DNA from: Desulfotomaculum sp.
GTDB lineage: Bacteria; Bacillota; Desulfotomaculia; Desulfotomaculales; Desulfohalotomaculaceae
Length of the DNA stretch: 64,000 nucleotides
Assembly: GCA_017656165.1 (NCBI GenBank)
Contig: JACDOL010000003.1
Coordinates: 1 to 64,000 of the forward strand
Reading direction: 5' to 3'
The position numbers and the translations under genes are program-made. Below are positions 60,809 through 62,914 of this stretch, piece by piece. The notes under the pieces were generated by a model, which saw only the letters and a program-made list of their open reading frames with translations, had not been told where the DNA came from and searched no databases. The first letter of the stretch is position 1, and each line of letters opens with the position of its first letter.

Positions 60809-62449
60809 TTATTTTAATCCCAGCATTTCTATGGCCTGTTCTCGAAGTTTAAATTTTTGCACTTTACCGCTGGCGGTAGTAGGATAATTATCTACAAATA
60901 ATATATACTGCGGAATCTTATAGCGAGCAATTTTATCAATACAATATTCTTGAATTTCTTCTTTTGTACATGATACCCCTTCTTTTAACTTGATAAAAGC
61001 CAGCACTTCCTCCCCGTACTTGCTGCTGGGAACTCCTACTACCTGCACTTCCTTTACCTTGGGATGAGTGTATAAAAATTCTTCAATTTCCCGGGGGTAA
61101 ATGTTTTCTCCCCCGCGGATAATCATATCTTTTAACCTCCCGGTAATTTTTAGGTAGCCATTCTCATCCGCAATACCCAGGTCCCCGGTATGCAGCCAGC
61201 CATCCTTGTCTATGGCCTGTGATGTGCTGACAGGGTCCTTGTAATAGCCTTTCATAACATTGTAACCCCGGGCACAGATTTCTCCCTGCACCCCTGCTGG
61301 AACCTCTTCCCCGGAAACAGGGTCAACAATTTTGACTTCTACATTGGGCAGTGCCCTGCCCACCGTATTAACTCTCAGTTCAATAGGGTCATCTGTTCTG
61401 GTCATAGTTATACCGGGAGATGCTTCAGTTTGACCATAAGTAATGGTAATTTCCTTCATATTCATCTTTTGAATAACTGCTTTCATAACTTCTATTGGAC
61501 AGGGAGCACCAGCCATTATTCCAGTGCGCAGGGATGAAAGATCATAATTCTCCTTATCCACTTCCTCCAGTTCCATTATAAACATGGTGGGTACTCCATG
61601 TACTGCTGTGCATCTTTCTTTTTCTATAGTTTTCAGCACTGCTTTAGGGTCAAATCTTTCCACCGGAACCATTGTGGCACCACTTACTACACAAGTTAAT
61701 GTTCCCAGCACACAACCAAAACAGTGGAAAAACGGTACAGGTATGCACAACCTATCCCTGTAGGTAAAATTTAAACACTGGGCAATGCTTTGAGCATTAA
61801 ATATCAAGTTAGTATGGGTCAGCATAACCCCTTTGGGGAAACCTGTGGTTCCAGAAGTAAACTGCATATTAATTACCTCATCTGATTCCAGGGAGTCCAT
61901 GCGGGCATCCAGTTCTTCCTCGGATACAGTCTCTGCCATGCCCAAAATATCATCCCAGGTTAACATGCCGGGGTGCTTTTTATTACCTAAAAGCACCACA
62001 TTCTTTAACAAAGGCAGTTTTTTACTATTTAGTTGACCAGGCTGACATTCTTTAAGTTCCGGGCAAAGACTGTAAATCATATCAGTGTAACTGGAACTTC
62101 TTGTACCATTAATCATAAATAAACTGGTACAGTCTGACTGTTTAAGCAGGTATTCCAGTTCAAAGGTTTTATAATTTGTATTTACAGTGACCAGTACTGC
62201 TCCCATTTTTCCAGTAGCAAACTGTAAAATTACCCATTGTGGAATATTAGTAGCCCAAACAGCAATATGGTCACCCTTTTTAATTCCCATGGCCATTAGA
62301 CCCCTAGCCACCCGGCGGCACAGCTGGTTAAATTCTTTATATGTGTAGCGCAGGTCCCGGTCTGTATATACCAGCGCTTCATTATCAGGATACATCTTGG
62401 CCATTTTTTCAAGCAAATGTCCTACGGTAATTTTGTCAGGTTTTTGCAT
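60809..62449 (-). CDS. AMP-binding acyl-CoA synthetase (long/medium-chain fatty acid CoA ligase type)
   Basis: MQFTSGTTGFPKGVMLTHTN; YGQTEASPGITMTRTDDP; GWLHTGDLG; GRLKDMIIRGGENIYPREIEE; TASGKVQKFKLRE. Confidence 0.95.
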   Translation of the reverse strand: MQKPDKITVGHLLEKMAKMYPDNEALVYTDRDLRYTYKEFNQLCRRVARGLMAMGIKKGDHIAVWATNIPQWVILQFATGKMGAVLVTVNTNYKTFELEYLLKQSDCTSLFMINGTRSSSYTDMIYSLCPELKECQPGQLNSKKLPLLKNVVLLGNKKHPGMLTWDDILGMAETVSEEELDARMDSLESDEVINMQFTSGTTGFPKGVMLTHTNLIFNAQSIAQCLNFTYRDRLCIPVPFFHCFGCVLGTLTCVVSGATMVPVERFDPKAVLKTIEKERCTAVHGVPTMFIMELEEVDKENYDLSSLRTGIMAGAPCPIEVMKAVIQKMNMKEITITYGQTEASPGITMTRTDDPIELRVNTVGRALPNVEVKIVDPVSGEEVPAGVQGEICARGYNVMKGYYKDPVSTSQAIDKDGWLHTGDLGIADENGYLKITGRLKDMIIRGGENIYPREIEEFLYTHPKVKEVQVVGVPSSKYGEEVLAFIKLKEGVSCTKEEIQEYCIDKIARYKIPQYILFVDNYPTTASGKVQKFKLREQAIEMLGLK

Positions 62450-62510
62450 ACTTATCCCTCCTCTAAACAATCAGAATATTCTGCAAATAATAGTTAAAAT
62501 AATTAGTAAG

Positions 62511-62554: not shown

Positions 62555-62862
62555 GCAAAAAACTCCCGTCCCTGTTAGGGACGGGAGTTTTTTCCCGCGG
62601 TACCACCCTAGTTGGTAGTAAAAATGGTGGAGCTGAGGGGGCTCGAACCCCTGGCCTCTTGAATGCCATTCAAGCGCTCTCCCAGCTGAGCTACAGCCCC
62701 ACGAATTACCCACTCTTGGTGTATATAACGGCCACCAACCGTCATGGAGTACATATCCCCCATGCATCTCAAGGGCGAGTTCAATGTTACGCTCACCGTC
62801 TCGCACCAACCGACGGCTCTCTGAAGAGCTGCACCATTTACTACTCCCTCTCATTGACTTTG
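62555..62862 (-). promoter_or_regulatory. T-box riboswitch (leucine-type specifier CUC proposed), interrupted by a tRNA gene
   Basis: AGAGAGCC stem I motif, GAACUCGCCCUUGAG specifier region, UAGGGUGGUACCGCGGG T-box, terminator GACGGGAGUUUUUU. Confidence 0.93.
62625..62700 (-). tRNA. tRNA-Ala (anticodon GGC), embedded in the T-box leader
   Basis: GGGGCTG/CAGCTCC acceptor, D arm GCTCAGCTGGGAGAGC, CTTGA-ATGGCAT-TCAAG anticodon arm, AGGGG-TTCGAGC-CCCCT T arm, encoded ACCA. Confidence 0.95.
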
Positions 62863-62885
62863 TATCTCATGTTTTGACGCGTTTT

Positions 62886-62914
62886 ATTATAAGATAAAGT
62901 ATTTTAAATGTCAA
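62886..62914 (-). promoter_or_regulatory. consensus sigma-A promoter for the T-box/tRNA transcript
   Basis: Minus strand TTGACA, 17-nt spacer, TATAAT. Confidence 0.85.

Follow-up and report, generated by a model that had tools for sequence, protein, structure and literature searches.

A complete gene for tRNA-Ala(GGC) lies within the leader of a leucyl-tRNA synthetase gene (leuS) in Desulfotomaculum sp., and comparison of related leaders indicates that it occupies the apical loop of Stem III of a leucine-specific T-box, with its own 5' leader and 3' trailer serving as the two strands of that stem. We regard the locus as probably a single transcription unit that carries two functionally independent modules, a tRNA-Ala(GGC) precursor and a leucine T-box attenuator for leuS. 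Judged from genome sequences, this arrangement, referred to here as the composite, is found in many anaerobic and soil bacteria.

The window, that is, the whole stretch of DNA that was analysed, comprises positions 1-64,000 of contig JACDOL010000003.1 (assembly GCA_017656165.1), and the locus lies on its minus strand (Table 1). The original prediction had placed a tRNA-Ala(GGC) with encoded CCA at 62625-62700 inside a T-box leader, and this was borne out both by ARAGORN and by an Rfam cmscan. In the latter, RF00230 matched over its full model (1-219) with 132.9 bits and an E value of 1.6e-30, compared to a gathering score of 93, placing stem I and the T-box on one full-length match, and the alignment contains an insertion where the tRNA model RF00005 was also placed (64.5 bits, 62700-62628, minus strand). 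The consensus promoter that had been proposed is a perfect TTGACA-17-TATAAT, a T-box stem I with AGAGAG, an antiterminator and a strong terminator were likewise seen in the Rfam alignment and the sequence, and no further promoter-like site was found between the two halves of the T-box. The leader shows a specifier that matches the downstream gene, the order RRRNG-Stem III-AA and the UGGN bulge of T-boxes, and the insert shows the cloverleaf, GGC anticodon, G3-U70, A73 and CCA of a tRNA-Ala(GGC) gene. The genes that we take to be leuS, acyl-CoA synthetase-like and rsfS-like were recognised from their translated sequences.

Table 1. Features of the composite locus in the window, with the basis of each assignment.
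Feature	Position	Strand	Basis
rsfS-like gene, upstream context	63294-62932	(-)	ORF translation
Promoter TTGACA-17-TATAAT	62914-62886	(-)	12/12 consensus positions
Whole T-box leader, tRNA as insert	62863-62574	(-)	Rfam RF00230
Stem I	62857-62767	(-)	Rfam alignment
AGAGAG in Stem I	62822-62817	(-)	sequence
Specifier CUC (Leu)	62779-62777	(-)	position in Rfam alignment; CUC in 108/108 parsed composites
Stem II	62765-62743	(-)	Rfam alignment
Stem IIA/B region	62742-62726	(-)	Rfam alignment
RRRNG motif, reads GAGUG, precedes Stem III	62715-62711	(-)	sequence; motif per PMC7778990
Stem III 5' strand = tRNA 5' leader	62710-62701	(-)	covariation across leaders
GGUA in Stem III 5' strand, pairs with UACC	62710-62707	(-)	covariation across leaders
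tRNA-Ala(GGC), CCA encoded	62700-62625	(-)	ARAGORN
Stem III 3' strand = tRNA 3' trailer	62624-62614	(-)	covariation across leaders
UACC in Stem III 3' strand	62617-62614	(-)	covariation across leaders
AA motif directly after Stem III	62613-62612	(-)	sequence
T-box / antiterminator	62609-62577	(-)	Rfam alignment
UGGU bulge in antiterminator	62605-62602	(-)	Rfam alignment
Strong intrinsic terminator, hairpin and T run	62589-62555	(-)	sequence, fold
Acyl-CoA synthetase-like gene between T-box and leuS	62470-60809	(-)	ORF translation; position conserved in relatives
leuS, leucyl-tRNA synthetase	60702-58222	(-)	ORF translation; homologues after composite in relatives

Many genomes of the order have the acyl-CoA synthetase-like gene between their leucine T-box and leuS (window 60809-62470; L032-L058), so the T-box should control that gene too. 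The window genome has a second T-box (L244, G000:C9:38866-38515, minus strand; 106.8 bits, 352 nt) with about 100 nt extra before Stem III, where ARAGORN reads no tRNA.

The tRNA had been predicted to lie in a loose linker between the sensor stems and the T-box; the interval was correct, whereas the linker proved to be the apical loop of Stem III. In T-box riboswitches this stem is flanked by RRRNG and AA motifs, according to PMC7778990, and the window reads GAGUG-[62710 to 62614]-AA, with the tRNA between both Stem III strands. For a test that involved no fitting of the stem, 126 leaders were aligned by sequence alone, the 5' strand being anchored after RRRNG and the 3' strand before AA, with pairing outward. 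The first five pairs were canonical in 85% of cases (123 leaders), compared to 15-50% when the register was slid by 1-3, and across leaders the pairs switch among GC, AT, TA and CG. When partners were permuted between species, none of 1000 permutations was as good as the real pairing over six pairs (observed 0.81 vs mean 0.64, sd 0.011), and the same permutation on 76 non-redundant rows gave 0.78 vs 0.61; kinship inflates permutation tests of this kind, a fault of which the slid-register control is free. A duplex-energy test of the stem gave z = -14.5. Stem III is absent from the minimum-energy fold of the window leader alone, and the evidence for it is comparative. The in-register, covarying pairs on both sides of the tRNA thus argue for its position in the apical loop.

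Within the window's order, 37 of 113 genomes matched a pattern in which the T-box motif lies 4-47 nt after any CCA-encoding tRNA, compared to one match for a reversed-pattern control. Ten further genomes of the order carry the composite with a slightly different T-box motif, eight confirmed by Rfam (G009, G031, G034, G050, G058, G069, G070, G072) and two by reading the sequence (G042, G075). The expected recurrence of tRNA-interrupted T-boxes in relatives extended to a phylum-wide sample, with matches in 48 of 250 genomes and none for the reversed pattern. A GTDB scan returned at least 120 matches; among the matches listed, 107 had tRNA-Ala(GGC) upstream of the T-box motif and three more were composites with the tRNA cut by a contig end. 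Ten pattern matches were set aside, eight of them without a tRNA and two, with tRNA-Leu and tRNA-Pro respectively, without LeuRS downstream. Composites among the matches listed bear the labels Bacillota, Chloroflexota, Thermomicrobiota, Armatimonadota, Atribacterota and Coprothermobacterota, and some labels of metagenome-assembled genomes among the matches (Pseudomonadota, Actinomycetota, Desulfovibrio) may be wrong. Named isolates with the composite include Desulfotruncus alcoholivorax DSM 16058, Desulfofundulus thermosubterraneus DSM 16057 and Syntrophomonas palmitatica JCM 14374, and Syntrophomonas wolfei subsp. methylbutyratica, Desulfofundulus and Dictyobacter are among the carriers that can be cultured. 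The full Rfam T-box model was run on about 26 composites, and a LeuRS homologue followed, directly or behind a synthetase-like gene, in all composites for which the downstream sequence exceeds about 1.7 kb. The draft state of the window genome (169 contigs) might point to an assembly or annotation artefact, but the same structure recurs in relatives and in named isolates, and its presence in single-contig genomes (G053, G012) argues against assembly error, leaving such an artefact a negligible probability.

The specifier was CUC in all 108 leaders parsed by script, with leuS downstream, in agreement with the original prediction of a tRNA precursor combined with a T-box of leucine specifier; by sequence, the switch appears leucine-specific. 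Another 27 leaders with enough upstream sequence fell outside the search expression; on inspection CUC is seen in most of them, and not in L157 and L168. The specifier region of L157 reads GAATTTATC and not GAACTCGCC. L168, from a Candidatus Atribacteria genome, keeps the promoter, tRNA and T-box motif, its sensor stems seem to be missing, and it gives the impression of a T-box on its way to being lost while the tRNA stays. Of nine relatives searched, eight have a tRNA-Leu(GAG) gene; in the window genome, a draft, none was found, and two pattern matches there are unlike tRNA.

In the window and in 81 of the 108 composites the triplet after CUC is GCC, and a register shifted by one codon would make the T-box read GCC and sense the very tRNA-Ala that it encodes, as the original prediction had suggested. 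T-boxes that use two codons do exist: one in Clostridium acetobutylicum is reported to sense two tRNAs in trans (Saad 2013, cited in PMC4052509). The window leader resembles that T-box in being linked to more than one tRNA, and differs from it in that the second tRNA is encoded in the leader, with nothing to support its being sensed. On the other hand, the next triplet is GUC (16), ACC (8) or AUC (3) in the remaining 27 composites, leuS is the gene that the T-box serves, and CUC-GCC also occurs in leuS T-boxes that lack a tRNA (L249, L251), so that GCC is neither fully conserved nor limited to tRNA-bearing leaders. Self-sensing of tRNA-Ala is thus not supported, and we consider either a shifted or a two-codon register very unlikely.

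The embedded tRNA appears, from its sequence variation, to be under selection as a tRNA. Among 68 distinct embedded sequences no acceptor pair is non-canonical, G3-U70 and A73 are invariant, and acceptor pairs 4-7 change on both sides in a compensatory manner. RNase P favours U at position -1, which is present in 114 of 137 cases. A tRNA-Ala(GGC) pattern applied across the order found exactly one copy, the embedded one, in almost every composite genome, the exceptions with a second gene being G012 and G066, although draft gaps or copies missed by the pattern could hide others. Being the sole GGC gene found suggests that the locus supplies mature, charged tRNA-Ala. The position of the tRNA on a T-box stem would also fit a purely structural role as a part of the riboswitch and not a working tRNA gene; this reading is extremely unlikely given that most composite genomes have this tRNA as their only GGC gene, that it keeps all tRNA identity features, including G3-U70 and CCA, and that it decays where another GGC gene exists. 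Two quite different types of embedded tRNA-Ala(GGC) were observed (L031-L180), one of 75 nt with a GCGC D stem and one of 76 nt with GAGC, and they share one site, as would result if one tRNA had replaced the other in situ. In Ktedonobacteria (L063, L078, L096, L119, L120, L136, L162) the composite is preceded, at a distance of a few hundred bases, by a tRNA-Ala(CGC) gene.

Either module has been lost without the other in natural relatives. Two genera of one family, and therefore few independent events, contain leuS T-boxes with a decayed tRNA on Stem III. In G094 (L278) the relic lacks the 3' acceptor half and the GGC anticodon and still aligns to tRNA with z = 12.5 (0/300 shuffles), that in G052 (L256) is fainter (z = 3.6 vs shuffles), and in G095 (L277) the tRNA is beyond recognition (z = 0.8 vs shuffles). 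By eye, tRNA-like fragments are kept in G036, G101 and G102 (L254, L280, L281), and G093 (L279) has a similar insert in a T-box that looks damaged or misassembled. A further tRNA-Ala(GGC) gene is present in six of these seven relic genomes, and the remaining one, G094, is 74% complete. Rfam scored two relic leaders at 128.7 bits (L256) and 119.7 bits (L254), and the retention of a full-scoring T-box next to a decayed tRNA argues that the switch does not need the tRNA.

Conversely, the tRNA precedes leuS with no T-box at gathering score in families f2, f5, f6, f9, f14 and f17 and in two genera of f1, in most cases with a promoter close before the tRNA and a terminator after it. Such a terminator between tRNA-Ala and leuS is retained without a T-box in L181-L186, L259, L261, L264 and L266-L269. 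Some of the terminators in these relatives still resemble those of T-boxes (UCUCGUC, UCUCAUCC), and several hairpins look like worn T-box terminators. In a LeuRS tree (FastTree) the tRNA-only and relic states fall among the composites of the order, the pattern expected if either part had been lost repeatedly. The tree is a quick one with long-branch warnings, and its rows outside the order were chosen for carrying the composite; neither the time of origin nor the choice between inheritance and transfer can be read from it.

Beyond the anatomy, the Stem III pairing, the identity of the tRNA, its conservation and the separate loss of either module, which can be read in the sequences, we infer a working order for the two independent modules. 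The strong promoter would drive an RNA with two roles, tRNA-Ala(GGC) precursor for the cell and T-box attenuator of leuS; in 79 of 106 composites the promoter agrees with the consensus at 11-12 of 12 positions, and some promoters of other T-boxes in these genomes are equally good. Stem III would act as a permissive hairpin displaying the tRNA, thus leaving Stems I, II and IIA/B, RRRNG/AA and the antiterminator in their usual order, and the T-box would remain active with the tRNA attached. Uncharged tRNA-Leu(GAG), read by the CUC specifier, would decide between termination and readthrough into leuS, and as the tRNA lies upstream of the attenuator, tRNA-Ala would be transcribed whatever the leucine status. 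RNase P and 3' processing would then free the mature tRNA-Ala, and leuS would also be shielded by the T-box from a promoter as strong as those of stable RNAs.

Since the RNase P site separates sensor from antiterminator, processing might instead be coupled to the switch: RNase P and 3' cuts would part the two, thereby limiting, resetting or tuning either the decisions of the T-box or the stability of leuS mRNA, and the nesting would be kept for that reason. The occurrence of the composite under labels from several phyla and in 48 of the 250 phylum genomes is consistent with this, but the T-box stays complete in relatives whose tRNA has decayed, the tRNA still precedes leuS in relatives that lack the T-box, and the status of the tRNA as the only GGC gene accounts for the conservation of the nesting. 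Transcription decisions are, moreover, usually faster than tRNA maturation. We consider a processing-coupled switch unlikely, and hold it similarly doubtful that the nesting is a working coupling in which the processing of tRNA-Ala from Stem III alters the decisions of the T-box or the fate of leuS mRNA, ties alanine-tRNA output to leucyl-tRNA synthetase supply, and for that reason has been kept over long evolutionary distances. Relics notwithstanding, the tRNA may affect the switch while it is present, and the persistence of the nesting over such distances might mean that the coupling itself, and not only the sole tRNA gene, is selected.

T-boxes, tRNA genes and tRNA-mRNA operons are already known, and it is the nesting that is striking, for its precision and its breadth. 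Genes for tRNAs are co-transcribed with protein genes in, for example, the E. coli tRNA-tufB operon; as there, the tRNA would presumably be cut from a transcript that also carries mRNA, whereas the tRNA of the window lies inside a regulatory RNA fold, between sensor and expression platform. Cleavage of riboswitches by RNase P is also known, and here too the enzyme would act on a riboswitch transcript, although its substrate would be a genuine pre-tRNA and not a tRNA-like fold. With the leucine-specific leuS T-box (RF00230; PMC7778990) the window leader shares Stem I with AGAGAG, the CUC specifier, Stems II and IIA/B, RRRNG-Stem III-AA, the antiterminator/terminator and leuS downstream, in contrast to which its Stem III bears a complete gene for the non-cognate tRNA-Ala(GGC). 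In the open-access literature, a scope outside which two main T-box surveys lie, we found no description of a tRNA gene nested in a riboswitch fold.

A regulatory RNA that houses what is often the sole gene for a tRNA would be an unusual nested RNA gene, one that is spread widely through one phylum and occurs under labels from several more. Stem III evidently tolerates a structured insert of about 76 nt, and the nesting requires a single molecule to accommodate both the maturation of a tRNA and the folding of a riboswitch. The natural losses of either part are available as comparisons. In bacteria that bear the composite, leuS expression and tRNA-Ala supply would share one promoter.
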